From: a virus
IMG/VR virus record: IMGVR_UViG_3300029319_006288
Location: 1 to 61,322 of that record
Reading direction: 5' to 3' (one strand)
DNA length: 61,322 nucleotides
Shown here: in pieces, positions 43,954-61,322 of the stretch
Numbering within the stretch: position 1 is the stretch's first letter
How the letters are laid out: the number at the start of each line of letters is the position of its first letter
Made by a program: the position numbers and the translations under genes
Notes under the pieces: model-generated
The model's database searches: none
What the model saw: the letters and a program-made list of their open reading frames with translations, nothing else
What the model was told of the DNA's origin: nothing

Positions 43954-44372
43954 TATTTCCTCACTGCTTTGACTTCATAGTGTAGTCCATCCATATGCAC
44001 AGTGAGAATTTCTAAACCTAGATTTTTCAGTGCCTCTACAACCATATCAGAAGTAGACATGGAATATGCAGCGGTAATAATTTGACACGCACTCTCTACA
44101 TCAAGAAGACCGTTCACCAGAAATTTAGAGAAAAATCTAACGTCTGTTCCACCAATAGAGACCTCACCGCCAAGCCTAAGTTTAGATATTAGGGCTTGAC
44201 AAACTTGTTGCACAGCATTAGAACTGAAAGAATCCATTAAATCTGCCGCTAGAATAGATTCACAAGAATTGTCTACAACATGGGACAACTCAAGCGAATT
44301 AGGCTGTGTAATTTGTACTATATCGTATCCACCAATCGTGTCTTGCTCTGGTCTGATAATTTGTAGTTTCAT
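43953..44372 (-). CDS. Methyltransferase-like fragment without SAM-binding motif I (139 aa)
   Basis: The segment SCESILAADLMDSFSSNAVQ followed by ALISKLRLGGEVSIGGTDVR matches motifs IV-V of class I methyltransferases (post-motif helix and the LxpGG strand). The GxGxG-containing N-terminal half is absent; only about 30 residues precede this region. It may be a partner subunit, a regulator or a decayed enzyme. The RBS and TAATG-type packing with neighbours are intact, so it is probably expressed. Confidence 0.5.
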   Translation of the reverse strand: MKLQIIRPEQDTIGGYDIVQITQPNSLELSHVVDNSCESILAADLMDSFSSNAVQQVCQALISKLRLGGEVSIGGTDVRFFSKFLVNGLLDVESACQIITAAYSMSTSDMVVEALKNLGLEILTVHMDGLHYEVKAVRK

Positions 44373-45349: not shown

Positions 45350-46436
45350 TTAGATTCTCCTTCATATTATTTCCTACATTTTCTAGCGAAAATACTTCCA
45401 ATCGTTCAAATGCCTCTCTTTTTCTATTTACACCATAAATGACTGGGTTTTCTGACCAAGCATTGTATAATTTTCTCATCGCCTCTTTCATTTCTTTTTC
45501 GCAAGGTATGATAACATAGTCTTTACCATTATTCAAGTCCGGCCACATTTTTGATCGGTTTGTATTTGTTTGATAGATAGATGATATACCGCAATCATCA
45601 AAGTATACCTCTGCATCTGTTCCCTCTGGTACAATTGGCGTGTTACCAAAAGCGAAGGCGTGAAATTCCTCTAGATTCAAGCATCTTTGGGTTTCACAGC
45701 TAACATAGCAATCTGCAAAAACATGAAGTGGCTCATGAGAACCGCTTAGTCTTGGAACGAATATATCTTTCCTGTAATCGGATGCTCGCGGGTGGAGACC
45801 CAAGTCTGTTTTTACTTTTTCAATCTTTTCGTCGATAAGTTGCTTGTTGCATGATTCGTCTACACCTAACAAAAGTACAGCATTGTCTGTGTCATTAAAC
45901 TCGGAATGGAAACATCTCAATACTCTCTCTACTCCATTACCCTCATTGTTGATAATAGTGTAGAATCTAAACTTATCTTTTGTCTCAAATCCTCCATCTA
46001 CTGGAGTAGTAGTGACTTTGTAGTTATCCTTGTTAAATGCATATGGGACTCGTTTAACCTTATCTTTAATGGGCGTATCCTTAAAAGCAATTTCGGCCCA
46101 TGAGCTTGGAACCCAAACCTGATCGAAACGATCTAGCTTTTCTATAATAGTAGAGTGTTTAGCTTCAACAAATTCATTTGCTAAAATAGCGATGTTTTTC
46201 TTGAATTTAGACGATGGAAGCATATGATCTGGGAATACGTGCTGTATACAGACATCGCAATCTTCAATGTCTTTTGCTTCAAACCTTCTCATTTCTTCTG
46301 GTGTATGGTCAATTCCAAACACAACTGACCGACATGCAACATCTACGCCAGCAGAATCTAGGGCTAAAATGTTATTCCTAGCAGTTTGACCCCAATCGCT
46401 ATGTTCTTTGTAATATCCAATGTATAAAACTTTCAT
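45342..46436 (-). CDS. GT4-like glycosyltransferase (364 aa)
   Basis: The first strand MKVLYIGYYKEHSDWGQTAR is GT-B-like; IAILANEFVEAKHS and DQVWVPSSWAEIAFKDTPIK are typical of the family-4 acceptor half. The donor half has FADCYVSCETQRCLNLEEFH, where NLEEFHAFAFGNTPIVPEG takes the place of the E..A.G.P signature. It is 364 residues, the usual length. The stop-start junction with the methyltransferase gene is TAATG. Specificity unknown. Confidence 0.7.
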   Translation of the reverse strand: MKVLYIGYYKEHSDWGQTARNNILALDSAGVDVACRSVVFGIDHTPEEMRRFEAKDIEDCDVCIQHVFPDHMLPSSKFKKNIAILANEFVEAKHSTIIEKLDRFDQVWVPSSWAEIAFKDTPIKDKVKRVPYAFNKDNYKVTTTPVDGGFETKDKFRFYTIINNEGNGVERVLRCFHSEFNDTDNAVLLLGVDESCNKQLIDEKIEKVKTDLGLHPRASDYRKDIFVPRLSGSHEPLHVFADCYVSCETQRCLNLEEFHAFAFGNTPIVPEGTDAEVYFDDCGISSIYQTNTNRSKMWPDLNNGKDYVIIPCEKEMKEAMRKLYNAWSENPVIYGVNRKREAFERLEVFSLENVGNNMKENLNV

Positions 46437-47065
46437 TATTTTCTCCTCCTAATTGCCCAATCAGGAAATGGCATATCGCTGCTAACTAAGGCACACATCT
46501 CAACTACCGGAGTCGCCTCTAAATATTCGTCTACGGCCTGTTTAATTCCGTATCCAAGTTGATTGGTATAGGTAACGCCTTCTTGAACAAAAAACGTTTC
46601 CTGACTGATGTAATCGTGACCACCCAAAACACCTTCGGGTTGTACTTTCCTTGCATAGCACTCGATGTCTTTCTTTACAGACTCATACAAATGACAACCA
46701 TCTAAATAAACAAAGTCAAAGTATGCTGGTTCAAATTCATCGACTAGTTCGTGAGAGTATCCTCTGTGGATATGAACTCTACCTTCTGCGATTTCTTTTT
46801 CGTACTTTCTCTCTAGCACAATCTGCATGTTCACATTACTATGAGCAGTAGGTACATTTCTCATATGACCTTCTTGATAGACCAGTCCATTGTTGGGATT
46901 CCACTCCCAAGGGTCTAACAGGTGAAGTTCTGATGGTTCCAGAATTTTCATAATCTTCTCTGAAAAATGCCCATGCTCTACACCAATCTCCAGAACTTTC
47001 GGGTTTTCTGGAAGCATTGTTTTGATGTAGTCTAGATATTCATCTCTCGTATCTAAAACTTTCAT
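46436..47065 (-). CDS. Class I SAM-dependent methyltransferase (209 aa)
   Basis: Motif I is VLEIGVEHGHFSEKI near residue 25. LHLLDPWEWNP is motif II. FVYLDGCHLYESVKKDIECY and LGGHDYIS are motif IV and beyond, typical of the Methyltransf_24 group that acts on sugars and nucleotide-sugars. The protein is complete with no membrane segment. It lies between a GT4-like transferase and a DUF5672 protein, with 1- and 4-base overlaps. It is the most intact of the methyltransferases in the cassette. Confidence 0.75.
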   Translation of the reverse strand: MKVLDTRDEYLDYIKTMLPENPKVLEIGVEHGHFSEKIMKILEPSELHLLDPWEWNPNNGLVYQEGHMRNVPTAHSNVNMQIVLERKYEKEIAEGRVHIHRGYSHELVDEFEPAYFDFVYLDGCHLYESVKKDIECYARKVQPEGVLGGHDYISQETFFVQEGVTYTNQLGYGIKQAVDEYLEATPVVEMCALVSSDMPFPDWAIRRRK

Positions 47066-47820
47066 ACCATTCCTTTTAAATCGTAGTCTTTAATAAATTC
47101 CATACCCGCTGAATTAAACTCGCCGTGAAAACCAAAAGAGTTGTAGCTAAACAGCATATTTCTATTAAAGTTGCCGAAAGGTGTTGGATGTTCTTTAGAA
47201 AATTGTGCTGCTAGTTCTGGTGGTGCAAACTTAATTCCTGCGGAGGTCATAGTGTCATAATTGAAAACACAAATATTGAGGTCTTCGTTTTTATGTTCCC
47301 ATCCTAGTTTTGCTGATTCCTCTACAAACGCTCGTGTTCTCAAAGAAAACCCTCCGTTGCCAACAACGTTCGGGATTTCTTCTATGCGTCCAGCAACCAT
47401 ATCGCTCGCCTGAATGATATGCATCGGCCAAGGAGCACCGATATAGTCATAGTGCATGAAGCGGTTGTCCCACTTCTCTATATCTATTATAGTTGAATCA
47501 TGCTGAATATTCAAACAGAAATCGTCAAAAATATACTTATTTGTCTGTTGAATAAAAGACTGATTAAAACCTACTCGATTCTTATCATCATTCGACATGT
47601 TGTCATTGAGATCGACACTCATATCACACACTTCGATCTTGTGCCTATCAATGACTTGACCGAATAACGACAAATCTGTTTTACTACTATCGGTAATTAA
47701 GACATGCCTCTTGAAATCTACCTGATCCATCGCAATCAGCATGGCTTTAAGAGATTTTTCTACATGCTCTGTTCCCCAGCAAAAGCTAAAAACTGTTACA
47801 TCTGGTAATTGTAATTTCAT
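47062..47820 (-). CDS. DUF5672-type glycosyltransferase-like protein (252 aa)
   Basis: The segments HYDYIGAPWPMH, VVGNGGFSLRTRAFVEES, KNEDLNICVFNYDTM and IKFAPPELAAQFSKEH match the conserved blocks of DUF5672, thought to be a GT-A-like family. The family's NGG-S-R turn and NED motif are intact. An IQHDSTI segment may hold the metal-binding acidic residue. It is encoded by a gene overlapping the next by 4 bases. Confidence 0.75.
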   Translation of the reverse strand: MKLQLPDVTVFSFCWGTEHVEKSLKAMLIAMDQVDFKRHVLITDSSKTDLSLFGQVIDRHKIEVCDMSVDLNDNMSNDDKNRVGFNQSFIQQTNKYIFDDFCLNIQHDSTIIDIEKWDNRFMHYDYIGAPWPMHIIQASDMVAGRIEEIPNVVGNGGFSLRTRAFVEESAKLGWEHKNEDLNICVFNYDTMTSAGIKFAPPELAAQFSKEHPTPFGNFNRNMLFSYNSFGFHGEFNSAGMEFIKDYDLKGMV

Positions 47821-48449
47821 TGAACCTCTAAACTTTCTTCAAATTCCATTTTGTCAAAAACTGTTTCTTTAGTATCCATGCATGTATTATAAATCTTCAT
47901 ACCATTCGATTCAAAAAACTCTTTATATAGTTTAAATGTAAAGCTCATAGCATCTCTGACACCATCAATGATATCGTCACCAATTGATTTAAATTTACTG
48001 TTAAAAAATTGCCCCTGATTGTCATGATTGCAACCAATAAGAAATGCATTTTTAACTCTTAATTTCATACAAAGAGGAAAAGCTACATCGTTGACCGTTC
48101 CATAACTCCAAGGCATTACATCTTGATCTATCATATCCATAGAAATTTCACTAATATCTTTGAGTCTCTTGGGCATCACGCGAACTTTATAACCATGAAA
48201 GTTAGTGATGTCGGTAGCTGTAGCTAGGTAAACCTTTTCATCTGGAAGTTGCTGGACCCAAGGTAAAACATCATTGACTGTACTTAAATCACCACAGGCG
48301 TAATAGATATCATTACTATTATCTATTTTATTTAAAGCTAATATAGTCCTAGAACAAGAGATTACTATGCTATTTTTAATCTTTGTTAGGTCCACCTCGT
48401 TAAGATGAGGACCAGAGAGCAGAATGTATGCATTACTTCCAGTAGTCAT
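47817..48449 (-). CDS. DUF115/MptE- or GT42-like protein (210 aa)
   Basis: I take the ATG at 48449 with AAAGGAAT upstream. A longer reading starts at 48530 but overlaps the epimerase gene by 98 bases. The sequence YILLSGPHLNEVDLTKIKNS is followed by IVISCSRTILAL, IYYACGDLS and SYGTVNDVAFPLCMKLRVKN, then LIGCNHD. This is the pattern of proteins related to DUF115 and to GT42 sialyltransferases, where the Gly-Pro-Ser/His loop and the GCDH-like strand bind the nucleotide donor. A sialyltransferase-like activity is possible but not shown. Confidence 0.6.
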   Translation of the reverse strand: MTTGSNAYILLSGPHLNEVDLTKIKNSIVISCSRTILALNKIDNSNDIYYACGDLSTVNDVLPWVQQLPDEKVYLATATDITNFHGYKVRVMPKRLKDISEISMDMIDQDVMPWSYGTVNDVAFPLCMKLRVKNAFLIGCNHDNQGQFFNSKFKSIGDDIIDGVRDAMSFTFKLYKEFFESNGMKIYNTCMDTKETVFDKMEFEESLEVQ

Positions 48450-49449
48450 ATATTCCTTTCTCAACTTCGTAGTCCATTTTCTTTTGCTCTCGCTGTGGTT
48501 GATGCATAGCCCATTTAAACATCTCATCAACCGTCTCTTCTAGATTGGTATCGTCACTAAAGTTCAGCATTTCTTTTGCTTTGGTGTGGTCACAAAAAGC
48601 GTGTTTAGCTTCGTGACGACCCTCTACATGCTTCTTTTCTGCTTCAAAGCCATTCTTCCAAGCTACACGCTGAACTGTATCTGCAAGTTCATTGATTGTG
48701 TATGCCTTGTCTGCACCAATATTGAAAAGCTCGTCATCGTGACCGTCAATAAGTTGCTCAAAAGGCTTCATGTAATACTTGATATCAGAGAACGCACGAG
48801 TCTGTTCACCGTCTCCGTAGATGAGCATTGGCTCACCAGCGAGGACGCGACGAATAAAAATGCCTGCAACGTTGCGGTACTTGTCCCAGATATTCTGATA
48901 AATACCAACAACATTATGTGGACGAATAATATTATAGCGTAATCCATGTTGCTCACGAGCCACTCTGATATCTTGTTCAATGGCATACTTTGCAATTCCA
49001 TAGGGATCAATAGGGGCTGGCCCCATAGCCTCAAAAAATGGTGGGTAGTGATTTCCGTATACAGCCATACTACTAGTGAAGATTAACTTCACATTGTGAT
49101 TGATGCACTGATTGATAACATTCACGCTTCCTAAAACATTATTTGTATAATTGAAATGACGGATAAAGGGCGATAATCCTTCTGCTGCATAGGCGGCAAA
49201 ATGGTAACATGCCACAATATCACGGCGAGGGTCGATGAAAATATGCTCTAGTGATCTTGGTGCCCATTCACCGTCACTCAAGTCCAAGGGCCAGAATTCA
49301 AATTGTTCTGGAGTTGCTTTTGGAAGATAGTCTGAGTATCCACCGCTAAGGTCATCAATCCCAATAACTTTATAACCTTTACTCAGAAGATGTCGGCTAA
49401 AGTGTGAACCTAATAGTCCCGCACATCCTGTTACTACGATTGTTTTCAT
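48433..49449 (-). CDS. UDP-glucose 4-epimerase-like extended SDR (338 aa)
   Basis: The Rossmann motif GCAGLLGSHFSRHLL lies at residues 8-22, with IDDLSGGYSDYLP following as in GalE-type enzymes. The catalytic pair is in DPYGIAKYAIE (YxxxK), and IFTSSMAVYGNHYPPF carries the catalytic Ser. IYGDGEQTRAFSDIKYYMKP is the substrate-side signature. It would interconvert 4-epimeric UDP-sugars. Full length with an intact cofactor site. The gene precedes the DUF115-like gene with a 17-base overlap. Confidence 0.85.
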   Translation of the reverse strand: MKTIVVTGCAGLLGSHFSRHLLSKGYKVIGIDDLSGGYSDYLPKATPEQFEFWPLDLSDGEWAPRSLEHIFIDPRRDIVACYHFAAYAAEGLSPFIRHFNYTNNVLGSVNVINQCINHNVKLIFTSSMAVYGNHYPPFFEAMGPAPIDPYGIAKYAIEQDIRVAREQHGLRYNIIRPHNVVGIYQNIWDKYRNVAGIFIRRVLAGEPMLIYGDGEQTRAFSDIKYYMKPFEQLIDGHDDELFNIGADKAYTINELADTVQRVAWKNGFEAEKKHVEGRHEAKHAFCDHTKAKEMLNFSDDTNLEETVDEMFKWAMHQPQREQKKMDYEVEKGIYDYWK

Positions 49450-51134
49450 TTAATAACCCCTTTATTTTTTAACACCTCGATTCGTTTCTGTTCCCAAGTA
49501 TTGATTCTATGTCTTTGTGCTACCATAGAATCATAAGCAATATGGAAATCAAAACCCTGTCTCTGATTTGTACCATCAAATGCCTGACTAGATTCATTAA
49601 AGTACATACCGCCAGTTGATCCCGTAGACGATTTGTAAGTTAAGTCTCTAATCATTCTAGATTCAAAAAATGTTCCCGCCCTTAATGGGTCTCTCAGAAC
49701 ATTTCCGATAAGGTACTGAGCCTGCATAGTTGGACTTACATTCTGCAATTGGTCATCTGGAATCTTATCTGCGGGTTCTAGAACTCGTGGAGGCGAAGCC
49801 CAAGTTTGCTCAATAGGTCTAATAGGAGTAGCGTCAAAGATTTGCTCCCACTTGTTTCCACTAAGGTGCCATTGGAAGTGCTTTTCAAAGTTCTTCCTTG
49901 TTCGCTTACCTTCTGCGACACGTTCTTCTTCGGTTTTATTTTGAAAGAAGTGAAGGAAATATTCCGCTGCCGCATCATTATCTGGGACAGCACGAAGACA
50001 ACCAGTCTCTAACTCTTTATAAAGTGCAGCCGGTTTAATGGGATGCCCTTGCAGTTTACGAATCTCACTCTCCATAGCAGAGTAGTCAGTTCCGCACACT
50101 GGAACACCACAAGCGGCAGCTTCTACATAGGGCAAACCAAAACCTTCAGAGTTAGCATATTGAATGTAAAGATCAAACAGGTTCTGGATTCGAGACAGAT
50201 CCTCGTAAGACGCACCATTCTTCACATTTGATAGAGTAGAGCCCCATTTTCCAGTATATGGAGACTGTGTTACAGCACCCTTAAACAAGGATGGGAATGG
50301 CTTCTTTGTCTCAGGGCAGATATAGGTGAACAAAACATGTGAAGACAAGTTGTTTTGCAAGATCAACTCTGGGATGTCCCAACCAAGATCAGGATAAGAA
50401 GTATGACAATAAAGATAATACTTCTTGCTTTCTGACTTATCCAAAAATTTCCTAAATGCTTCAAACAAATCTGGATATAGTTTACGTCGTTGATTACGCA
50501 TAACAGTTCCAAGGATTTTATACTCTGGGTCAATCCCCATAGATAGCTTGTGTGCTTTCTTGTCTTCAATGGGATGATATGCTGGATGGGCAGAAGGCGG
50601 TGAAGATCCATGATACTTAATTTTACCACCAGATTGATCTGCAAGTACAGTTCCGGCCCAATCAGAATATGTCAGACAAGCATCAGCACCAGCATATGTT
50701 GAAACCCACTGTCGTGCTTGCGGTCTAGCATCGACCGTTGGCATAATTACCCAATCGAAATAGGGTCGAAAAGGACTTCTCTCTGCGAAGTCGAGCATCC
50801 AAAAGTCTCGAATGTCGCATACAATATCAGGCAAGAAATCCAAGCAAACATGTTCAAAGATCCATTCTCCAAATTGATTTGTAGCAGATGATCCAAACGC
50901 CTGAAGTTCTTCCTGACTTGCCTTTGGTTCGCAGTCTGTGTTTGGTTGAACACCGTAAAACTTCCAAGGAATATTTGCTGCCCTTGGGTCATTTCGTTGA
51001 CCATAGGATGCCATTTCAGCAAGCTCATACTTTCCAGTAGAGTGCAAGTAATTCAAAATCTCACGAGTATAGGTAGCGTATCCAGTGTTCAGGAAGGTAG
51101 CTTCGCTACAGAACAGAATTCGTTTCTTTCTCAT
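49446..51134 (-). CDS. Large GT4-type glycosyltransferase (562 aa)
   Basis: I choose the ATG at 51134 (RBS AAGGAA) rather than 24 bases upstream, so the gene starts just after the ssb stop. The N-terminal half begins RILFCSEATFLNTGYATYTR, the GT-B acceptor strand. The donor half shows YIQYANSEGFGLPYVEAAAC followed by GVPVCGTDYSAME, the GT4 EGFG..xxEA..CGxPV signature. Beyond the catalytic domains it carries about 120 extra C-terminal residues of no recognised family. It may belong to the cassette promoter at 51465-51493. Confidence 0.8.
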   Translation of the reverse strand: MRKKRILFCSEATFLNTGYATYTREILNYLHSTGKYELAEMASYGQRNDPRAANIPWKFYGVQPNTDCEPKASQEELQAFGSSATNQFGEWIFEHVCLDFLPDIVCDIRDFWMLDFAERSPFRPYFDWVIMPTVDARPQARQWVSTYAGADACLTYSDWAGTVLADQSGGKIKYHGSSPPSAHPAYHPIEDKKAHKLSMGIDPEYKILGTVMRNQRRKLYPDLFEAFRKFLDKSESKKYYLYCHTSYPDLGWDIPELILQNNLSSHVLFTYICPETKKPFPSLFKGAVTQSPYTGKWGSTLSNVKNGASYEDLSRIQNLFDLYIQYANSEGFGLPYVEAAACGVPVCGTDYSAMESEIRKLQGHPIKPAALYKELETGCLRAVPDNDAAAEYFLHFFQNKTEEERVAEGKRTRKNFEKHFQWHLSGNKWEQIFDATPIRPIEQTWASPPRVLEPADKIPDDQLQNVSPTMQAQYLIGNVLRDPLRAGTFFESRMIRDLTYKSSTGSTGGMYFNESSQAFDGTNQRQGFDFHIAYDSMVAQRHRINTWEQKRIEVLKNKGVIK

Positions 51135-51135
51135 T

Positions 51136-51453
51136 TTATTCCTTGTCCAAGCATCCAAAGTCGAATTGATTAACTCTAAAAATAATATCGTCCACGGAGT
51201 CGGTTTTCATGACACCGTTTCTGGCAGAGGCGTGTACGGTCATTTTCATGCCCTTCTTTCCTAGTTTAGCGATTGCGTCTGCACCACTATCAAAGGCTTG
51301 GAAGGTCACAGTCGTTGGATAACGCTTCTTATCACCACGCTTGTTTCTTGTGTACTCGTATGTCACCAGCTTAAAAACGCAAACTGATGGGTTTTTTTCA
51401 TAACCTATATCTGGGTCAAACAATAGATACCCTGTAAAAATACAATGGTTCAT
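51136..51453 (-). CDS. ssb: Single-stranded DNA-binding protein, OB-fold (105 aa)
   Basis: It begins NHCIFTGYLLFDPDIGYEKN and continues with VCVFKLVTYEYTRNKRGDKK, then TVTFQAFDSGADAIAKLGKK and MKMTVHASAR. This is the strand order of bacterial/phage SSB (GxL..DP.....FxL......F.AF...A......KG..). It lacks a long acidic C-terminal tail. It sits directly downstream of the second dnaE half and has its own promoter-like sequence, so it may be expressed early with the replication genes. Confidence 0.8.
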   Translation of the reverse strand: MNHCIFTGYLLFDPDIGYEKNPSVCVFKLVTYEYTRNKRGDKKRYPTTVTFQAFDSGADAIAKLGKKGMKMTVHASARNGVMKTDSVDDIIFRVNQFDFGCLDKE

Positions 51454-51493: not shown

Positions 51494-53059
51494 CTAAATT
51501 TCGTGAATTTTCTCAACAATAAATGAATTATCCTTTTCAATATCTCCGCAAAGCATGAGATTGGCACCTTCGTAAAGAACAAACTGGTATTTGTCTCTTG
51601 CGTCTGGGAAAATGATTACATTGTCTAGGGAGCAAGTGGCATCTTCAATTGTGAGGAACGACATGATCCGCCCTTTTTGCTTGCTATCCTTCTTGTTGAT
51701 CTTATGATTAGCTACACGTTGAACATTCGCTACAATGCAAATATCCTTACCAAACTTACCATTGGCTACTTCTTGACATGTAGTATTAGCAATTGATGCG
51801 TCGATAGCATCTGTATACTGATATGACACTGGGCAACCCAAGAGTTTAACCTCTTCTGCGATAACCCACTGTGGCTCGTCAGACATATCATATGGTGGAT
51901 TTTTTAGCATATCAATCTCACCGTACACAATCTGACTACGATTGGCGTTGCTACATCCACCACCCATTTTCTTGGTAGGAGACAGATCTCTGAAACAATC
52001 CTGTAGTTTTGACCACTTCTTTTTAGAGTAGTTCTCTGTTACCCACTTTACCTCTGCCTTTGTTAGCTCACGCCAGATGAGATACTCGTACAATGCTTGA
52101 TTTCTAGTGACACCAGTTTTCTTTGTTGAGAAGAATCCAATACCAGCAAGTGCCTTGAAAGCCGTAGACGTAATCTTGGGGGCGATGTAGATAAGCACAT
52201 CCATCCAAGTAAACTCATCAGCAGGTTTGCCCAATTCTTCTGTAGCATCACCAATAGCCTTCAAGACTTTCTCGCCAGTGACACCAGTAAGACCTTTAAC
52301 GTCACGAACTCCAAACTGAATGTCATCACCAAAGATGGCAAACTTCTCAGAGAACCTGTTTAGTTTAGGAGTCTTTACTAGTATATTGAATAGTTTAGCT
52401 TCGTTTACTAGCTCATAGATTTCCTGATGAGGATCTTGCTTTTCATTCGCATAGTACAGGTAGGACAAGAAGAACTCTTTTGTATAGTTCGCCTTGTAGT
52501 ACGCAGACCAGTACGAGTCGAGTGCGTAGGCAACGGCATGAGACTTGTTGAAAGAATAACGAGACGACTTTTCAATCCAGTCAAAAATCTGGTTTGCAGT
52601 GTCTTCATCTACAAGTCCAACCTTTTCACAGCCTTCGATGAATTGTCCACGAATCTCAGCCATGAGAGACGCTTTCTTTTTACCAATAGCTTTACGAAGA
52701 TTGTCTGCCTCCATCTCATTGAATCCCGCAGCTTTGACCGCGATGAGCATAGCCTGTTCTTGGTATACAAGCACACCATGCGTAGTCTTTAGAATTTCTT
52801 CTAGACTAGGATCAAGATAGACAACATCCTCTCTTTTATGTTTACGGTCTACAAAGTGCTGAGTCATAGACTTGCCCTCGCTAACCGCCTTCAACGTTCC
52901 GGGCCTGATGATAGCGATCAATGCCGCTAGTTCCTCAAGGTTTTCCGGTGCAACTCTTTTGGACCATGCACGACCAAGGTTACTCTCAAGTTGGAACAAG
53001 CCTTTGGTCAATCCATCTTTGTACAAGGTCCAAGCCTTTGGGTCATTTCTGTCAATCAT
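51494..53059 (-). CDS. dnaE: DNA polymerase III alpha subunit, C-terminal part of split DnaE (521 aa)
   Basis: This half carries the fingers and later domains. KGLFQLESNLGRAW and LAALIAIIRPGTLKAVSEG match E. coli DnaE just after its palm. TTHGVLVYQEQAMLIAVKAA and YSFNKSHAVAYALDSYWSAY (about residue 165) are the conserved fingers motifs. The last 100 residues form an OB-fold-like region (ICIVANVQRVANHKI ... MSFLTIEDATCSLDNVIIFP). The catalytic Asp residues are in the other gene (54521-56149). The ATG directly follows the TAA of the 88-residue gene. No intein is present at the junction. Confidence 0.9.
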   Translation of the reverse strand: MIDRNDPKAWTLYKDGLTKGLFQLESNLGRAWSKRVAPENLEELAALIAIIRPGTLKAVSEGKSMTQHFVDRKHKREDVVYLDPSLEEILKTTHGVLVYQEQAMLIAVKAAGFNEMEADNLRKAIGKKKASLMAEIRGQFIEGCEKVGLVDEDTANQIFDWIEKSSRYSFNKSHAVAYALDSYWSAYYKANYTKEFFLSYLYYANEKQDPHQEIYELVNEAKLFNILVKTPKLNRFSEKFAIFGDDIQFGVRDVKGLTGVTGEKVLKAIGDATEELGKPADEFTWMDVLIYIAPKITSTAFKALAGIGFFSTKKTGVTRNQALYEYLIWRELTKAEVKWVTENYSKKKWSKLQDCFRDLSPTKKMGGGCSNANRSQIVYGEIDMLKNPPYDMSDEPQWVIAEEVKLLGCPVSYQYTDAIDASIANTTCQEVANGKFGKDICIVANVQRVANHKINKKDSKQKGRIMSFLTIEDATCSLDNVIIFPDARDKYQFVLYEGANLMLCGDIEKDNSFIVEKIHEI

Positions 53060-53326
53060 TTAAATTCCAATAAAATACTTCAGAGCAAAATAAGAAGCCG
53101 CTGTAACAACAAATCCAACAATAAGTCCAGTAGCAAGGCCGGTTAAATAACCATCATATGGAACGGCTATTTCTTCTGGAATGTCTTCTGGGTTTTTATC
53201 TGCACGCTTCTTTGCTTCTTGCAATGCACTGTCAGTAAACAAGTAGTCAATCTCCTTGTCTCGAATGTGCCAGTAGTAACCCTGTGCGGTCTTGTACCGA
53301 CCTTTATTTTCTACTTCTCTAAACAT
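53060..53326 (-). CDS. Small C-tail-anchored membrane protein (88 aa)
   Basis: The N-terminal 60 residues are hydrophilic (GYYWHIRDKEIDYLFTDSAL). A single hydrophobic segment near the C-terminus (LATGLIVGFVVTAASYFAL) ends with KYFIGI, a tail-anchor-like layout. The family is not recognised. Its gene lies between the NaeI-like nuclease and the second dnaE half with 9 and 0 bases of spacing. It could tether a replication or nuclease component to the membrane, but this is only an inference from position. Confidence 0.6.
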   Translation of the reverse strand: MFREVENKGRYKTAQGYYWHIRDKEIDYLFTDSALQEAKKRADKNPEDIPEEIAVPYDGYLTGLATGLIVGFVVTAASYFALKYFIGI

Positions 53327-53335
53327 AATAATCTC

Positions 53336-53857
53336 CTAAATAAATATTCTTTTCCAAAACGGGGTAACTTGATTTCTTTTTGCTGAACCCAACCAATCAA
53401 TTTTGCTTTTGCCGTGTTTTGACACACTCAGCTTTTTGTCCCTATTCATTCCTTTGGTTAGATTATCTGCTGTTGTTCTTAAAAGTCCATAGCTGACCTC
53501 GTTTGCGTCCTTAACCTTTGTCAGTAAGCAGATCCCATCAATGCGATAGCACTCAGGCGGAATATACCATTGAGGATTTTTCAATGCTGTAAACTTAATG
53601 TCAAAGTCAATTCCTTTATGGCTACAATCAAGGTCGTCGCCATCTGCAAGTTTAGCTTCAAGAACTAAGTATCTCTCAAACTTAATTCCAATAATAGACT
53701 TCTCTGTTTTGGTGAGTTCCTTCATGTCAGTGAACCCTGTACGCTTCGTATCCAATGTAAAGTCTATCGCATCAAATGCTGCCTTCGCAACCTTTAAATC
53801 AAACTTTGGTATAGACAAAATATACCTTTTAATTTCTTCTAATTCACTGTCACTCAT
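53336..53857 (-). CDS. NaeI-type restriction endonuclease homologue (173 aa)
   Basis: The sequence LDTKRTGFTDMKELTKTEKS followed by KFERYLVLEAKLADGDDLDC, then GIDFDIKFTAL, WYIPPECYRIDGICLLTKV and GMNRDKKLSVSKHGKSKIDW follows the N-terminal nuclease (endo) domain of NaeI: E, then D, then D-x-K, with the IP.E and NRDgKrSvS segments. The catalytic Glu, two Asp and Lys are kept. The C-terminal CAP-like (topo) domain of NaeI is absent. No methyltransferase is encoded nearby. The gene lies between the dnaE halves and overlaps the exonuclease gene by 4 bases. Confidence 0.75.
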   Translation of the reverse strand: MSDSELEEIKRYILSIPKFDLKVAKAAFDAIDFTLDTKRTGFTDMKELTKTEKSIIGIKFERYLVLEAKLADGDDLDCSHKGIDFDIKFTALKNPQWYIPPECYRIDGICLLTKVKDANEVSYGLLRTTADNLTKGMNRDKKLSVSKHGKSKIDWLGSAKRNQVTPFWKRIFI

Positions 53858-54528
53858 ACGAATAGTTTTCCGTCCGCGAACGCTTTTTCAAACTTCATGT
53901 TCCGGTAGACTGCTCGTCTGGACTTTTGCAGTTTGATCCAGATGTTTGCAGTGTCCTTAACGTCTTGGAGAGCGTCGTGAGCGTTTTCACTGGACAGTCC
54001 CATTCTTTCTCGTAAGCTATCCATACTAATAGACTTAACATTTGGATCTCCTTCTGTCCACAGCCACACATCATCCATTACGTCAATTTTATAAATTTGG
54101 TGAAAGAGTTTTTGGCACTGACGTTTGTCGTCGTATGGTCCGTATTCTTTACACAGTCTATTTACGATGTGCATATCATAACCAAGGATATTAAATCCAC
54201 ATGGAATGGGTGCGAAGAACGATGTACCTTTCCAATTATATTTGTCTACAAACGCACAGAACTTTTTCCACACACCTTTTGGAAGTGGTGCCTTGGCAAG
54301 TTTCTCTCTGGTCTGACCGGTTACTTTCAAAGCACCTTCTTCTAGCGGGTCAACGCCAGCTTTGATTGCTTTCTCGTCGTCGATAATGGGACGCATGAGA
54401 CTATTGAATTGTCCCTTGAGTCTAAAGTTCCTACCGTCAAGTGCGATAGCAGCAATCTGTGTAGGTTGACACTTGTGGGGATTACGCCCACCAGTCTCAA
54501 AGTCAAATACAATAATATCTCTATTCAT
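53854..54528 (-). CDS. DnaQ-like DEDD 3'-5' exonuclease (224 aa)
   Basis: The Exo I motif is FDFETGG (Asp9, Glu11). GFNILGYDMHIVNRL is Exo II with Asp. HDALQDVKDTANIW is Exo III, with His giving the DEDDh subclass. Bacterial epsilon subunits have the same order and proofread for the alpha subunit. The gene starts 7 bases inside the end of the first dnaE half, so the two are translationally coupled. As the polymerase PHP site is degraded, this is the likely proofreader. Confidence 0.85.
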   Translation of the reverse strand: MNRDIIVFDFETGGRNPHKCQPTQIAAIALDGRNFRLKGQFNSLMRPIIDDEKAIKAGVDPLEEGALKVTGQTREKLAKAPLPKGVWKKFCAFVDKYNWKGTSFFAPIPCGFNILGYDMHIVNRLCKEYGPYDDKRQCQKLFHQIYKIDVMDDVWLWTEGDPNVKSISMDSLRERMGLSSENAHDALQDVKDTANIWIKLQKSRRAVYRNMKFEKAFADGKLFV

Positions 54529-56149
54529 TAATTAGCTCCTTGATAAACATCAATTTGTCCAATAAGTTCAACCCAAGAAGGTCAAACTTAACGTGACCTA
54601 ATGCTTCTAGGTCGTTCATTTCCAATCCCGCAATCTTCTCACCGCCACTCTTCTGATTCACCATAGGGCAAACTCTGTATAGTGGTTCGGCAGAGATGAC
54701 AACGCCAGCAGCGTGTTTTCCCTGTGTCTTAAATGTACCTTCAATATCAATAGCCTGCTGAAAGTATTCTGCAAAATCTCCCTGTAATCTACCCTCCTCG
54801 TCGATATGACAGTAGTCCATCAAATCGTCTGCACGATTCTGTAGTGTCCAGCGAATGATAGAACGATCTTCTTCGTCCATCTGCGATAGTTGGTCAGAGA
54901 TAGCAGCTTCGTCTGGAATGTACTTTGTAATCTCATTCATTTCAGCAAAACCACAAGCATCATTCACACGAAGAACTTCTTTCATCGCACTTCGCCCTTG
55001 CAGTCTACCAAACGTGAGCATCTGACTAACGTTGTCAGCACCGTATGTTTCTTTTAGTCTGGCTACAATTTCATCACGCTTATTTCCGGGAACGTCCATA
55101 TCAATATCAGGAAGAGATATATGGTCATCTGTATTACGACCCTCATTGTAGAAACGCTCAAACAGTAGATCAAACTCGATAGGGTCAATCTGTGTGATAC
55201 CAATTAGATAGGAGATAAGGCATCCAGCAGCAGAACCTCGTCCGGGTCCAACCATCCACCCTTGTTCGCGACACCAATTTAAAATGTCCCAAACGATGAG
55301 GAAATACCCAAATAGATTTGCCTTTTCAAAAACCTCAAACTCTTTTCTAAAACGGTCACCGTATACCTGACGTTCCTCTTGGCCGGTGACTTTATCACCA
55401 AGAAGTTTTTTCCAGCCATTTCTTGCCAGTTCCCGCAAGTAATCCTTCTCTGACTGTCCGTTCGGAGTCTCAAAGACTGGCAACATTGGCTTGCTCAGGA
55501 TGTTATAATTATCACACTTATTAAATATTTCCTTAAAGTCTTCCATTCGTGGGTCGTCTATAACCAGCTTGGATGACTCTAGTTTATCTTTAATGTAGAA
55601 GTCGTCTGACTCAAAGAATACTCCGTACTGATCATCTGCTTCTGATAGTCCGTTTTTCTTAACCTTACTAAGTGTAGTCTTGAGTTTACCACAAAGTACA
55701 ATTCTATGCAGTTCTGCTTGATCTTTAGTTGCATAGTGACTCTTATTAAAAGCCTCAGACCAGATATAGAAATCATCACCTGTAACGGGAGACAGAGCCT
55801 CAGAGTTGGCAATGCAGATAAGGTTGCCCTGTCGTGCGAGGCGAACCATAGTGCTGCGATCCTCATTACCATCTGCATCAATTGTAGATACAATCTCAAT
55901 GAGGTTCAGCCATCCCGCATGGTTTTTGGCAAAAAGAGCAAAGCCATCGAAAGAACAACCAATGATCGGTTTGATATCATTGTCCATGCAGGCTTTGTAA
56001 AAAGATATGGCACCGCTAATAGTCTTATAGTCAGCGATGCCGCAGGCGGGATAAGAATTCTGCTTGCACTTCTTGGCAAGATCGCTTGGCTTGGAAAAGC
56101 CATATTGTAGTGAATAGTGGGTGTAGTTCAGTAGCGGAAACCACTTCAT
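54521..56149 (-). CDS. dnaE: DNA polymerase III alpha subunit, N-terminal part of split DnaE (542 aa)
   Basis: It carries the PHP and palm domains. Residues 1-65 are PHP-like (LNYTHYSLQYGFSKPSDLAK, then PACGIADYKTISGAISFYKA), but the HxH is YTH and the DH is DY, so the metal site is lost. The palm holds WMVGPGRGSAAGCLISYLIG, LPDIDMDVPGNKRDEIV with the catalytic Asp pair near 347-349, and HVKFDLLGLNLLDK near 520-530 with the third Asp. The ORF ends 10 residues later, where E. coli DnaE continues into the fingers. A promoter lies just upstream. Confidence 0.9.
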   Translation of the reverse strand: MKWFPLLNYTHYSLQYGFSKPSDLAKKCKQNSYPACGIADYKTISGAISFYKACMDNDIKPIIGCSFDGFALFAKNHAGWLNLIEIVSTIDADGNEDRSTMVRLARQGNLICIANSEALSPVTGDDFYIWSEAFNKSHYATKDQAELHRIVLCGKLKTTLSKVKKNGLSEADDQYGVFFESDDFYIKDKLESSKLVIDDPRMEDFKEIFNKCDNYNILSKPMLPVFETPNGQSEKDYLRELARNGWKKLLGDKVTGQEERQVYGDRFRKEFEVFEKANLFGYFLIVWDILNWCREQGWMVGPGRGSAAGCLISYLIGITQIDPIEFDLLFERFYNEGRNTDDHISLPDIDMDVPGNKRDEIVARLKETYGADNVSQMLTFGRLQGRSAMKEVLRVNDACGFAEMNEITKYIPDEAAISDQLSQMDEEDRSIIRWTLQNRADDLMDYCHIDEEGRLQGDFAEYFQQAIDIEGTFKTQGKHAAGVVISAEPLYRVCPMVNQKSGGEKIAGLEMNDLEALGHVKFDLLGLNLLDKLMFIKELINE

Positions 56150-56209: not shown

Positions 56210-56238
56210 ATTATAGTCTTATATCGACTATTTTCCAA
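56210..56238 (-). promoter_or_regulatory. Sigma70-like promoter before the replication block
   Basis: On the - strand TTGGAA (56238-56233), a 17-base spacer and TATAAT (56215-56210) lie 61-89 bases upstream of the dnaE ATG. The -35 overlaps the end of the cytidylyltransferase gene. The sequence GACTATAAT matches that of the ssb promoter at 51465-51493. Confidence 0.55.
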
Positions 56239-56956
56239 TGTCTTTTTTGAAAATTTGTCGAAAAAGCCTCTGTGCATCTTCAAATTGCCAAGGCTCGTCA
56301 ATGTCAATTGATCGCACCATTAGATCGTCTGGATGACTGCCATAAAGGTAGGGTTTACTACCAATATAATAATTATGTTTTAAGTAGTCTTTTTTAAGCA
56401 TAATGTGGATAGCCTGCTCCAATGTGTACCAAGTTTCTAGGTCTTGACTCCACTCATGCCACCGTCCAAAGTTATAATTTACTGGGCGACCCTTGTCGTT
56501 TAAGATGAAATGTTGTATGGGACGCACAGTTATAATAGAATCGTACTGGTTCCATTTAGTAGAGAACGCACCTTCTCGACTTTGAATCTGTCTCCAATAC
56601 TCAAATATTTTCTGATATTCGTCTGGGCCAAACAATGGCGTAGTGGCTTGTACCCAAGCGATTGATTCATCGTCTTCGGCATCTACGGATGAGACGAGTG
56701 TAGTGATAACATCTGACCAATGCATATCATCTTTTGTGTTTGCAGCATCTCTAAGGACAAACTTTGCACCCAGTTGCTCTACTTTACTTCTTTTGGATTC
56801 TTGTTCACAAAAAACATTGATGTCTGCTGCGTTGATACCCGCCTCAAGAAGTTGCCCAATCTTGATTTCAACTAAACATTTTCCATCCACAAATTCACGC
56901 CAGTTCTTATTTAAAGTCCTAGAACTGTTACACTTTGCTGGAATGATAACCTTCAT
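56228..56956 (-). CDS. CMP-sialate-synthetase-like cytidylyltransferase (242 aa)
   Basis: The start KVIIPAKCNSSRTLNKNWRE corresponds to the IPARxGSKxxPxKN loop of NeuA/PseF/KdsB-type cytidylyltransferases, with Lys and Ser substitutions. IAWVQATTPLFGPDEYQKIF is the conserved LQPTSPLR-like strand. VRSIDIDEPWQFEDAQRLFR is the DIDxxxDxxxAE signature with metal-binding Asp. It would activate a nonulosonic or related acid as its CMP-sugar. No NeuB/PseI synthase is visible in the window. It ends 78 bases before the dnaE start. Confidence 0.75.
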   Translation of the reverse strand: MKVIIPAKCNSSRTLNKNWREFVDGKCLVEIKIGQLLEAGINAADINVFCEQESKRSKVEQLGAKFVLRDAANTKDDMHWSDVITTLVSSVDAEDDESIAWVQATTPLFGPDEYQKIFEYWRQIQSREGAFSTKWNQYDSIITVRPIQHFILNDKGRPVNYNFGRWHEWSQDLETWYTLEQAIHIMLKKDYLKHNYYIGSKPYLYGSHPDDLMVRSIDIDEPWQFEDAQRLFRQIFKKDIGK

Positions 56957-56974
56957 AATATCCTCCTAAAATCA

Positions 56975-58852
56975 TCAGTAAACACTTTCTCTGTCAATGG
57001 AAACCACATACTTTCCTTTATTCTTGTTTTTTGCTATGAATTTAGATTGTATATCACAGCTTTCTACAAAGATAATAGATTGAGATTCATTAAACTTTTC
57101 AGATTTAAATGCGGCAACATTCTTTGAGTGTAATCCTCCCGCATCTCTCTCCTCTTTTGTTCCCGGCCACATGTGAAGATCGTTATATTTTATACCATGT
57201 AATTTTAACCAATATTCTGTTTGTTTTCTGTATTTCTCTGGTCTACCTGTGCATATTGCATCAGCAGGATGAGATAATGGAAGTCTATGTTTTATCGGTT
57301 TAACACTCAGCATCCAATCAATATACATTTCTTCATTCGCATCTATTTCTACAGTGCAATCAGCATTAAACACACCATCCATATCGAACATTGTGTGCTC
57401 AGTTTGATAGGTGTTGAATAGGTTCCATTGTAAGATATGAGGAAACGGAAGCTCTATATTCCATGCGTCTAAAATAGGTAATGTATCGTTGTACTTTTTA
57501 AACTCTAAAGACGGTTCATGATACACAGACGTATAAATGAATTTTTTTTCTGGGTAATTTTGTTCTAGGTTATTCCTTGTTCTAATCATAGCTCCACCAG
57601 AGAATGACGTATCGTCTATAACAAGAAATGGAAGATCAATGTTTTCTTTCTGTTCAGACATTCTAGCACCACCATTTTTCGAGATGCTATTCAGTTTTAC
57701 AATTTTTCCATCAGAAATACCATATAGTGGGAGGGAAAGCACTGTGGCTATAGTTGTGGCGGGCGTCATACCAGACCTTGGAATACCAACTACTCCAGCT
57801 ACCGGAGGAATTTGATCCAACAGTTTGATGGAGTCTCTTACTAATTCTTCATTAGATATAAATTTTACTGGGTAAATTTCGTTTGCAATTTTCTTAAAAT
57901 TTCCATTAGCAAACCTTTTGAGTAACCCTTTTCTTAAATCCAATATCTTTTGCAATCCATTTACATGAACAAAGTTAGCATCACCAATTGTTTCCCAAAA
58001 TTCATGTGGTACAGGAGACTTTGGTCTTGAGTTAGTGGGACCGGCTGTTCTGCAATTCCACTTATCGTCGAGGATTTCAAACTTATCTTTATCAACATTA
58101 AGTGCGAGCCAATGTTGATCAAAACACCACTGTTTCGGATAAACAACCTCTGGTTGGCAATAAAGTTTTGAGCAAGAATTCGGTATTACCATCACTCCAG
58201 CATTTGGTTCAAAATTAGATGTAAATTTTCCATTCACAACCATTTTATGGGAATTTTTAAAGATCTTATGTATTAAGAGTTCTTGTTCTTTTTGAATCCA
58301 ATCTGTATCATTCCATTGTGCAAATGATTTGAAGTCATCGCATAATGAAATTTTATCATCAGGAGTGCAATCAAATATATTTTCTGCATCTTCTTTTACT
58401 ACGACATCGCAATCTAAATACAACGTCTTTTCATAGACAGAAGTTACATTATACAACCTATATTTGTTAGCCATCGGCCATTCTGGATGCTGGTCGCCAG
58501 TCAGTTCGATGTAATCCGCACCGCATTTTTCAGCATAAGTTTTAATTGTTTCTCTTGTTATGTCCAAGAGATCCATAGCGGATTGATTAGCTGGAATTAC
58601 GCAAACTGCGTAATCGCTTGTTGGGGTAGGAATATCATCGACGAAGTTTATTAGATCAACCATCATCTCTGATGATGCCCGCTTAAGTGTTCTTGTTTTT
58701 CCATTCACACTGTCGTGATATTGTTTTCTTTCTTCTTCTGTTAATCCTTGACACCACTGCCAATTAGGAGGGGTGGCGGTCATTTCTTTTTTAAGAAGAT
58801 CGCACCACCCCGCCTGCGGACATTGACATTTAGAAAAGTTCTTTTCTACCAC
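56975..58852 (-). CDS. Fusion: Cys-rich start, glycosyltransferase, phosphoribosyltransferase, HAD phosphatase (625 aa)
   Basis: Residues 9-34 have Cys at 9, 11, 17 and 34 (CQCPQAGWC ... WQWC). About 80-320: a GT8-like transferase with YEKTLYLDCDVVV (DxD near 147) and FDQHWLALN. About 340-450: a type I phosphoribosyltransferase, with VVGIPRSGMTPATTIATVLS and the PRPP loop VIDDTSFSGGAM. About 486-625: a HAD-type hydrolase with FDMDGVFNAD and ICTGRPEKYRKQTEYWL. The GT motif, PRPP loop and HAD Asp pair are all intact. It could transfer sugar or ribose-5-phosphate and remove phosphate on one chain, but the acceptor is unknown. It overlaps the next upstream gene by 7 bases. Confidence 0.75.
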   Translation of the reverse strand: MVEKNFSKCQCPQAGWCDLLKKEMTATPPNWQWCQGLTEEERKQYHDSVNGKTRTLKRASSEMMVDLINFVDDIPTPTSDYAVCVIPANQSAMDLLDITRETIKTYAEKCGADYIELTGDQHPEWPMANKYRLYNVTSVYEKTLYLDCDVVVKEDAENIFDCTPDDKISLCDDFKSFAQWNDTDWIQKEQELLIHKIFKNSHKMVVNGKFTSNFEPNAGVMVIPNSCSKLYCQPEVVYPKQWCFDQHWLALNVDKDKFEILDDKWNCRTAGPTNSRPKSPVPHEFWETIGDANFVHVNGLQKILDLRKGLLKRFANGNFKKIANEIYPVKFISNEELVRDSIKLLDQIPPVAGVVGIPRSGMTPATTIATVLSLPLYGISDGKIVKLNSISKNGGARMSEQKENIDLPFLVIDDTSFSGGAMIRTRNNLEQNYPEKKFIYTSVYHEPSLEFKKYNDTLPILDAWNIELPFPHILQWNLFNTYQTEHTMFDMDGVFNADCTVEIDANEEMYIDWMLSVKPIKHRLPLSHPADAICTGRPEKYRKQTEYWLKLHGIKYNDLHMWPGTKEERDAGGLHSKNVAAFKSEKFNESQSIIFVESCDIQSKFIAKNKNKGKYVVSIDRESVY

Positions 58853-60219
58853 TTACGGCAACTCCAATATCGTGCTTTGTGACGAGGGCCGGGATTATCA
58901 CAGTTGTGCCTAGCTCGGAACGACTTGCGACGAGCGGGGTCAGACTTCTTGATCTTCATGTTAGGATCACCAAAGTTGACTTTGACAACATTACCTTTGG
59001 GGTTCTTCACATAAACGCTAAACTTCTTTGGACCCTTTGGAGTACGGAAAGGTTTACCAAGCTGAACTTTACGGCCTTGATATTCCGCAGCACGAGCAGG
59101 AATAAGAGTGCGACCGTCTTTCTTGTAGATGCCTTTTCGTTCGTACTCGTAAATCTGACCGGTCTTAGGGTCTTGATACTTAAAGCCTGCTTCTGCCTCT
59201 TCCGCTTTAGACTTTTTAGGATGACCTTTTGGTAGTAGGTCATTATCTGTAGTGTAGGCAGAGTTAGATGGCTTTCCAGTTCTGAGCAACGTCAAGAAGG
59301 CGTTGACTCTAGCGATAGCCCAACCGTGTCGGCTCATCTTGGGTGCGTGACTTGTTGAGTAAGCACCAGCACCGCGACGATACACTGCTTTCAACATGCC
59401 AAGTGTAGCTTTAGAACCTTTGCCCTTGGCGTTGTGTTCCTTAACTTTATTTTGTAGTTGCTGCGTTACTTCTTTGCTAAAAGTGATTTTACCTTTACCA
59501 TCTTTTGCACTATCAGGCTTGTTCTTCTTAGAGCCTTTCTTCTGATCCTTCTTTGGTGCAGGAGTTCTGCGAGGATCATCTTTTCCGGGCTTGTCTGCTT
59601 CTGCGTGATCTGCATACGAAGCAACCAGTTCAGCTTTGCTTTTATCACGCACAGCGTCCATATACTCTTCATGGGTTTTTCCCGGCATAAAAATCGGTTT
59701 GCCATTTTTACCCTTGTGAGTATGGATGTCTTCCAAGCCAAGTTGCTTGGCTCTATTCATAGCTTCACCCGGATTGTCAAAAACATCATCGCCAATTTCT
59801 TTGCTTTGGGCACGCTTGAGTTGTTCTTGAGTAGGTCTGCCTTCCTTCTCAGTTTTGGCAGGCTTATAATTTTTACCCATTCTTTCTTTCTTACGTCGGA
59901 TATTCTCCCAGAGTCCGGGTTTGGCTTCTGAAATATCCCACTCTTCTGTAGGCTCATTCCAGTCAATATCTGTTTCATACTCTGCTTCCGCAGGACAGTA
60001 CCAGTTATCTTCTGTAATCTCTTCTGTAAATCCATACTCTTCAAAGTTGATCTGGAAGTCAGCAGCTTCAATATGAGACATGTCCTCACAGGCTTTGCTC
60101 ATACAGACCGCTGTACGCTGCTTCTGATCTGGATATTCTTTGTTGATTTTAGGATCGCTCATGCAACGAGCAATAAACTGTCCCGGCTTTTCACCGTCAC
60201 GTTTTTCTGGTAAAGGCAT
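58846..60219 (-). CDS. Basic phage morphogenesis-type protein (457 aa)
   Basis: The N-terminal motif (residues 1-45: GEKPGQFIARCMSDPKINKE, then YPDQKQRTAVCMSKA) and the C-terminal motif (VNFGDPNMKIKKSDPARRKS, then FRARHNCDNPGPRHKARYWS) are both familiar from head-region proteins of phages. A central block (SKATLGMLKAVYRRGAGAYS, then WAIARVNAFLTLLRTGKP) resembles the DUF5824-type region. Long Lys/Asp-rich linkers (about 195-240) separate the parts. The C-terminus binds His/Cys and may hold metal. It may be a capsid-assembly, DNA-packaging or internal virion protein. Confidence 0.6.
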   Translation of the reverse strand: MPLPEKRDGEKPGQFIARCMSDPKINKEYPDQKQRTAVCMSKACEDMSHIEAADFQINFEEYGFTEEITEDNWYCPAEAEYETDIDWNEPTEEWDISEAKPGLWENIRRKKERMGKNYKPAKTEKEGRPTQEQLKRAQSKEIGDDVFDNPGEAMNRAKQLGLEDIHTHKGKNGKPIFMPGKTHEEYMDAVRDKSKAELVASYADHAEADKPGKDDPRRTPAPKKDQKKGSKKNKPDSAKDGKGKITFSKEVTQQLQNKVKEHNAKGKGSKATLGMLKAVYRRGAGAYSTSHAPKMSRHGWAIARVNAFLTLLRTGKPSNSAYTTDNDLLPKGHPKKSKAEEAEAGFKYQDPKTGQIYEYERKGIYKKDGRTLIPARAAEYQGRKVQLGKPFRTPKGPKKFSVYVKNPKGNVVKVNFGDPNMKIKKSDPARRKSFRARHNCDNPGPRHKARYWSCRKW

Positions 60220-61322
60220 TATACAATCTCCTTCAAGATGTTTTTAGAGTCTTCTTTAACGATATCGTGTGGTCTACCATCTGTTGCGGTATACCTTGTA
60301 TTTTTAGGCATGTTTAAGTGGTCAAAAATAGTCCAAGCCAAATCTTCTGGCGTTGCTCTACCTTGGTCGAAATCGTCGGCATTTGCACTGGTAGTGCCGA
60401 CAGTTCGGCCCATTTCATAACTTCCGCAGCTAATCATTAGCGGTGCGAGTTTTCCGAAATGGTCGCGACCACCATTTGAGTTGACCTTTGGAGTGCGACC
60501 AAACTCAGAAGTAACAACAAGCATAACACGCTCATACATTCCCCTTTGTTCTAGAGTGTCCATAATTTTAGCAAGGTATGTATCAAGGACGGTCTGTCTA
60601 TTCTGTAATCCGCCAGCAATGTTGTTGTGCATATCCCAGCCGCCATAGCTGAGTGTTACAAACTTAGAACCAGCTTCTAACAGTCTAATCGCTGTGAGTG
60701 CATCAGTCCCAAGAGAATCGCCCTTAAAGTTGTTATAGTCTCTGTCTTCTTCGACCCTAAAAGCCTTGGAAGCATTACCAAGAATAATATCTACTGATTG
60801 GTTTTTAAGATCCTGCCAGTCTTTTGCCATCTGCTGATCTCTGGCTTTAAAGCCTCTGTCAACAGTGTCTAAAACTCTCAGTCTCATTTTGAAACGATTG
60901 TTGTTACCAAGAAGCTGTAGGTCTTTACGTCCCTCTCTGGTGGCATCAAACCCCATATACTTGCCGCCCAACCAAGCTGCATCGTCATGCTGGAATCCAC
61001 CAATCTTAATATATGTAGGCAGCCCATCAGCGGTGTTGACACCGTGGTGTACGCTCATCATGCTACCATAACTAGGCCACTTAGAACTTGTGCCAGCACC
61101 AAAGTTGGCCTCGCCAGTAACTACCCAGTGTACGGAAGATGCGTGGTTTTGATCTCTATGACCAAATGCTCTAGGAATGACGATCTTATCTGTGCGTTTT
61201 GCTAGTTCTTTAAACAGACCACCAACCTCGATACCCTGAACATTGGTCTTAATTGCACCAGTTACAGACCGCCTATCAGCAGGAGCAAGAGGTATAGGAT
61301 TAAAAGTCTCAATATGACTAGC
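60219..61322 (-). CDS. DUF1501-family protein, 5'-truncated by the window edge
   Basis: The frame is open to the last base, so the ATG at 61061 is internal; 367 residues are visible. RDQNHASSVHWVVTGEANFG, LPTYIKIGG, GWDMHNNIAGG and VVTSEFGRTPKVNSNGGRDH match conserved blocks of DUF1501, a family in the alkaline-phosphatase/sulfatase superfamily (the TSEFGRTP...GRDH motif is its hallmark). Family members are mostly secreted in Planctomycetes and other PVC bacteria. Any signal peptide lies outside the window. It overlaps the morphogenesis-type gene by one base. Whether it is virion-borne or made in the host is unknown. Confidence 0.8.
   Translation of the reverse strand, partial: ASHIETFNPIPLAPADRRSVTGAIKTNVQGIEVGGLFKELAKRTDKIVIPRAFGHRDQNHASSVHWVVTGEANFGAGTSSKWPSYGSMMSVHHGVNTADGLPTYIKIGGFQHDDAAWLGGKYMGFDATREGRKDLQLLGNNNRFKMRLRVLDTVDRGFKARDQQMAKDWQDLKNQSVDIILGNASKAFRVEEDRDYNNFKGDSLGTDALTAIRLLEAGSKFVTLSYGGWDMHNNIAGGLQNRQTVLDTYLAKIMDTLEQRGMYERVMLVVTSEFGRTPKVNSNGGRDHFGKLAPLMISCGSYEMGRTVGTTSANADDFDQGRATPEDLAWTIFDHLNMPKNTRYTATDGRPHDIVKEDSKNILKEIV

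Follow-up and report, generated by a model that had tools for sequence, protein, structure and literature searches.

The IMG/VR record examined here, which belongs to an uncultivated phage clade and all 61,322 bases of which constitute the window, carries in a replication operon a 173-residue open reading frame that, judged from its sequence, is a homologue of the Endo domain of NaeI and not a complete NaeI restriction enzyme. We lean towards regarding the gene as a free-standing, mobile endonuclease of the homing type (HEG-like), composed of the NaeI catalytic domain without the Topo domain or a methyltransferase and lodged in a slot for nuclease genes. The operon lies on the minus strand, in the order polN, exonuclease, NaeI, small membrane protein, polC and SSB, with the following features:

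54521 to 56149, minus strand: polN, the N-terminal half of a split DnaE, with PHP domain and polymerase core (Pfam, PHROGs)
53854 to 54528, minus strand: DnaQ-like 3'-5' exonuclease lying between polN and polC (RNase_T; phrog_192, DNA polymerase exonuclease subunit)
53336 to 53857, minus strand: NaeI Endo-domain nuclease gene, 173 aa, ATG start, stop codon within the coordinates
53327 to 53335, minus strand: 3' junction, GAGATTATT, which reads TTTAGGAGATTATT when joined with the NaeI stop TAG
53060 to 53326, minus strand: small predicted membrane protein, second occupant of the slot between exonuclease and polC (membrane segment recognised by eye)
51494 to 53059, minus strand: polC, the C-terminal half of the split DnaE, from the finger domain onward (Pfam, PHROGs)
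51136 to 51453, minus strand: single-strand DNA-binding protein (SSB) gene of the same operon (Pfam)

The identity of the nuclease is supported by matches in both Pfam and the PDB. The Pfam family NaeI (PF09126) scores the ORF at 91.7 bits, where the cut-off is 25 (E=6.3e-26), aligning residues 22-157 with profile positions 16-150 of 288, and the NaeI structures (PDB 1ev7/1iaw) match with E=4.4e-10 over residues 3-153, equivalent to 12-159 of the chain. In an alignment of the ORF with 21 bacterial NaeI proteins, the columns of E61, D77, D86 and K88 are invariant in all 22 rows; counted along the 1ev7 alignment they correspond to E70, D86, D95 and K97 of NaeI, which we take to be its catalytic residues. 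The TEK and NRDKK stretches conserved in the bacterial alignment are also retained, the phage domain being about 28-40% identical to its relatives. The preliminary description had stated that the NaeI motifs are intact in 173 residues and that the C-terminal topo-like domain of NaeI is missing, and both statements hold: all 21 bacterial proteins measure 294-378 aa, and the phage protein, at 173 aa, lacks the C-terminal Topo/effector domain. The truncation falls at the end of the Endo domain, and another gene begins a mere 9 bases past the NaeI stop, which leaves no room downstream for a vestige of the Topo domain. At the other end, the start codon overlaps the stop of the exonuclease gene (ATGA), and translation of NaeI is therefore probably coupled to that of the exonuclease; the NaeI stop codon TAG itself forms part of the AGGAG of the following gene.

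Relatives of this domain were also sought in viruses. PHROGs has no family for the ORF, tblastn found no relative among 50,697 phage records, and scans of viral contigs yielded 7 pattern matches with the single sequence and 307 with a three-row alignment, none of which was confirmed as a relative. A profile search covering 50 of the 76 related loci, the fetched stretches of the other 26 being checked by tblastn, recovered PF09126 in 0/50 related viral records and in 3/3 bacterial genomes used as positive control, hence the distribution of NaeI is sporadic. No standalone NaeI domain was found in bacteria among 19 genome loci, 2 plasmid matches and 6 matches in 385 genomes of one class, counting the centre genome; all of these matches are long frames.

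The operon reveals a DnaE-type replicase encoded in two pieces, for which no report from phages was found in the limited collection of literature searched. The exonuclease lies between polN and polC in all 73 operons counted for slot contents (rows), and in two further loci (L082 and L084) dnaE is one unbroken frame across the split point, with the exonuclease upstream (L082 9001-11397). The split thus predates the NaeI insertion and was not caused by it, and the unsplit relatives allow a comparison of the two arrangements. These two loci are included in the polymerase tree and, dnaE being unsplit, stand outside the slot counts, as do the window itself (L001), second copies of contigs (L066-L071 and L073) and two loci with one half missing (L036 and L083).

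Both gaps flanking the exonuclease behave as insertion slots. Between exonuclease and polC, 36 of the 73 rows are empty, 22 hold an endonuclease VII-like gene, 5 an unassigned family designated S2 (the L032 kind, whose predicted structure is poor, with pLDDT 39) and 2 an FkbM-like gene; NaeI, a NaeI remnant, an HNH gene, a second HNH family, an L046-type gene, a glycosyltransferase, a gene classed as other and the membrane gene on its own occur in one row each. Between polN and exonuclease, 49 rows are empty, 8 hold a family designated S1, 4 an FkbM-like gene, 4 an HNH gene and 2 an HNH remnant, and two further unassigned ORFs occur in 3 rows each. The state of the slot has changed at least 23 times (exonuclease to polC) and at least 19 times (polN to exonuclease) on the polymerase tree of these rows, which come from related phages and are not independent. 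Nucleases or their remnants account for 40 of the 61 occupied slots around the exonuclease, as against 0/9 recognised nucleases in the occupied rows of the polC to SSB and SSB to GT gaps of the same operon; the labels rest on family matches of representatives and remnants called by eye, with clusters checked, and L007 is counted as non-nuclease despite its endonuclease VII remnant. Since FkbM methyltransferase-like, glycosyltransferase and membrane protein genes occupy some of the slots, non-nuclease cargo is accepted as well.

The insertions adjoin the stop codon of the exonuclease and the next start codon, and often share the overlap. Exchange at this point is best seen in the clade formed by the window, L002 and L007, which has 100% support and in which three different occupants are found in the same place between exonuclease and polC, namely NaeI in the window, endonuclease VII in L002, and in L007 an unrelated gene together with an endonuclease VII remnant, the 5' end of the latter gene surviving ahead of the newcomer. 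The small membrane protein gene is also present in L002 and in L074, and in L074 the site between exonuclease and membrane gene is empty. In a locus from another metagenome (L005), codons 1 to 22 of NaeI survive at 86% identity, and the 3' junction TTTTAGGAGATTATT comes some 15 bases after them; because both gene ends remain, L005 must once have had NaeI, the inside of which has since been deleted. In the slot between polN and exonuclease of L005 and L055, an HNH gene has likewise left its 3' end behind.

Slot nucleases other than NaeI have, on the evidence of their identities, moved between diverged phages. The endonuclease VII genes of L029 and L045 are 98% identical where polC is 79% identical, and the S1 nucleases of L026 and L042 are 94% identical, compared with 83% for polC, 80% for the exonuclease and 77% for polN. 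Of the 176 pairs whose occupants share a family and whose polC genes are less than 95% identical, 20 have an occupant of higher identity than polC and 156 do not, so recent transfer is visible in a minority only. It might be argued that the NaeI gene is instead an inert passenger, a truncated restriction gene acquired by chance and already non-functional, given that it is present in a single copy, that half of NaeI is missing and that L005 demonstrates gene loss. We consider this quite improbable, however, as the frame is intact, the four catalytic residues are kept despite about 28-40% identity to relatives, and the truncation falls at a domain end with clean coupling to both neighbours.

A nuclease family with a predicted restriction fold occurs in the neighbouring slot. 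The S1 family, which fills the slot between polN and exonuclease in L017, L026, L028, L042, L047, L056, L065 and L075, matches no Pfam family (L017 scanned) and no PHROG better than E=0.03 (L017 and L075 scanned). Its AlphaFold model (pLDDT 78) matches NhoI, a restriction endonuclease (Foldseek E=1.7e-4; VIA Z 9.6, rmsd 3.9, 129 aligned), and less well I-Ssp6803I (PDB 2ost; Z 6.2), archaeal Hjc (5.8) and NaeI (5.3), values below 8 that may reflect only a common arrangement. Going by this model, S1 is a family with a predicted restriction-enzyme fold, nearest to NhoI/Eco15I, and its presence beside the NaeI slot is counted for the homing reading. A wider search of viruses gave 398 S1 matches, from which 80 loci (L112-L191) were taken, and 56 of the 80 lie near genes matching proteins of the window operon, mostly polN or exonuclease, some of these loci belonging to the same clade. 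Such proximity to replication genes could mean that S1 is a domesticated replication nuclease, contrary to pure homing.

These observations bear on the idea that the slot is a place for a phage recombination nuclease (a branch-cutting enzyme or resolvase) which is replaced non-homologously by endonuclease VII, S1 or NaeI. In its favour, S1 resembles archaeal Hjc (Z 5.8) and stands near matches to window-operon genes in 56/80 viral loci, some of the same clade; none of the 73 operons contains both endonuclease VII (22 rows) and S1 (8 rows) (hypergeometric 0.047, uncorrected for relatedness); and the relatives of endonuclease VII include resolvases (PMC6083498). Against it, endonuclease VII is present in 20/44 and S1 in 6/44 records, many records of up to 173 kb having neither, which weakens any reading as an essential resolvase, and one record (G015) carries both. 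The endonuclease VII motif of L002 is, moreover, C-terminal (the match spans residues 61-118 of 135), as in the endonuclease clade and unlike the resolvase clade of PMC6083498. We therefore hold a role in recombination to be very doubtful.

Whether the phage NaeI belongs to a restriction-modification system was assessed from its gene context. The premise that NaeI is normally paired with a methyltransferase is true of bacteria, a C5 methyltransferase homologue being nearby in 18/21 bacterial NaeI loci. Neither PF00145 nor PF01555 was found in the 61-kb record or in 13 close relatives (14 records), in agreement with the original remark that no DNA methyltransferase is visible within 61 kb; the result applies to a record of 61,322 bases that is probably a fragment of the phage genome, the remainder of which may still encode such an enzyme. 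For the records searched, a reading in terms of base modification or restriction-modification was accordingly rejected. The only methyltransferase-named matches in Pfam scans of the window, which covered the main ORFs outside 5105-17779, 20323-25485 and the small overlapping ORFs, are Methyltransf_24 and RMNT_CmcI; these are of sugar or small-molecule type and lie in the sugar-gene region. This region (31323-51158 and 56228-58852, minus strand) is a large block of glycosyltransferases, sugar epimerases, an aminotransferase and small-molecule methyltransferases; a DUF1501 gene (60219-61061, minus strand, E=8e-37) belongs to the same gene run, and a gene for an HNH or homing-type endonuclease (32084-32848, minus strand; phrog_559, E=1.8e-14) adjoins the block.

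NaeI recognises GCCGGC, and this site is missing from the window (0 versus 3.4 expected) and from 12 near-clade loci (0 versus 13.4 expected); none of the 11 close-clade relatives examined has it, and 37/40 records lack it. Its avoidance was rejected as a NaeI-specific signal, the deficit of palindromes being general: the window has 529 six-base palindromes where 937 are expected, 20 of them are at zero copies though more than 5 are expected (e.g., AAGCTT, 0 versus 25.7), GCGC is found 0 times against 78 expected, CCWGG is at 0, and near relatives without NaeI are equally depleted. The tetranucleotide CCGG, for its part, is over-represented in the window (101 versus 78 expected).

A phage so depleted of palindromes might come to no harm from an orphan restriction enzyme, and the Endo domain could be used offensively, cutting GCCGGC-like sites of host or rival-phage DNA while the site-free phage genome needs no methyltransferase. 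The absence of the site from the window, the near-clade loci and 37/40 records, together with the retained TEK and NRDKK stretches, is consistent with such an orphan enzyme. The same absence is nevertheless unspecific, given the 20 other palindromes at zero and the equal depletion of NaeI-less relatives, the slot pattern and decay favour a mobile gene, and DNA binding by the Endo domain alone is putative; we judge this explanation unlikely. In a related and similarly unlikely scenario, host restriction would have purged the palindromes and avoidance would replace methylation, leaving the orphan enzyme either to attack the DNA of the host or of rival phages or to serve as a re-targeted homing enzyme. 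No paper on orphan phage restriction enzymes was found in the literature searched.

Of the three earlier readings of the gene, a free-standing homing nuclease, a nuclease digesting host DNA, with the phage DNA being modified, and a replication-linked nickase, the first is the likeliest and best supported, by the interchangeable slot nucleases, the sporadic distribution, the decayed copy in L005 and the transfer of other slot nucleases. Digestion of host DNA loses its modification component, as the fragment has no modification gene, and survives in a variant with GCCGGC-free phage DNA; the nickase finds no specific support, for the gene has replication genes as neighbours, yet the slot is empty in 36/73 related operons. 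Homing endonucleases in this position would also accord with the nuclease-like ORFs in polC inteins of two relatives, which are counted for the homing reading: L077 has an HNH intein (11331-12400) and L082 an intein around a Vsr-like ORF (11200-12700), while polN of L038 contains split-intein-like pieces (6000-6700), all of these being presumptive calls made by eye from known motifs. An insert of about 280 bases in L083 (5350-5626) has no Rfam match. No group I intron was recognised, as no Rfam family reached its cut-off anywhere in the window, nor was there a match in six loci.

Under the homing reading, the NaeI protein would be expressed and would dimerise, and, where a phage without the gene infects the same cell, it would introduce a double-strand break into the equivalent region of that phage's genome. 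Recombination repair from the carrier would then copy the gene and some of its flank into the slot, whereas the carrier itself would be spared for want of a target, either because the insertion removes the target or because the genome has no site. The gene may later decay, as the remnants in L005 show. As GCCGGC is missing from close relatives, the native specificity of NaeI could not drive homing; the specificity would therefore have changed, or the target lies elsewhere, in host or rival DNA. No homing target emerged, since different relatives have different palindromes around the empty junction. It also counts against homing that the NaeI gene is known as one full copy and one remnant, the evidence of transfer coming from other slot families, and that, to our knowledge, most homing enzymes carry an added DNA-binding domain, of which the phage protein has none. 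A published title on NaeI reportedly speaks of 'separation of binding and catalysis', which raises doubt about DNA binding by the Endo domain alone.

If the homing reading is right, the gene provides a direct link between restriction enzymes and homing endonucleases, being a recognisable type IIE enzyme that has been reduced to the catalytic domain and occupies the position of a mobile nuclease. The series of empty, filled and decayed slots in otherwise similar operons offers a testbed for how restriction folds become mobile and how a lone restriction enzyme is tolerated. No NaeI-type phage homing enzyme was found in the limited collection of literature searched. With R.NaeI (type IIE, PF09126, PDB 1ev7/1iaw) the phage protein has in common a homologous Endo domain and the E/D/D/K active site, but it has no Topo/effector domain, no cognate methyltransferase was found for it, and its gene sits in a viral replication operon and not in a restriction-modification locus. 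I-Ssp6803I, a homing endonuclease of the PD-(D/E)XK type, is a precedent for the use of a restriction-type fold in homing, as proposed here; it is encoded in an intron, whereas for the phage NaeI none was found, every Rfam family staying below its cut-off in the window.

The closest parallels in genomic arrangement are found among free-standing nuclease genes of phages. In HEG-islands, nuclease genes bracket replication genes and the nucleases at one location may be of entirely different classes, a PD-(D/E)XK HEG included (PMC10448857); the same interchange is seen here, with the differences that a NaeI-type domain is involved and that the gene being flanked codes for an exonuclease and lies within a split dnaE. 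The seg and mob endonucleases of T4-like phages are free-standing, intergenic and sporadic, and stand beside or inside essential genes, with gene splits in nrdA, gene 60 and gene 43 (PMC2988022), much like the phage NaeI; they are GIY-YIG and HNH enzymes, however, whereas here the fold is that of a restriction enzyme and NaeI arrived after the split. Proteins with the endonuclease VII motif act as homing enzymes in the F-CphI/DHHRN family (PMC6083498), and proteins with this motif occupy the same slot in relatives of the window; they resemble the F-CphI endonuclease clade in having the motif at the C-terminus and differ in fold from NaeI. Judged by sequence and by analogy, a working system would be best compared with the free-standing homing endonucleases of phages.
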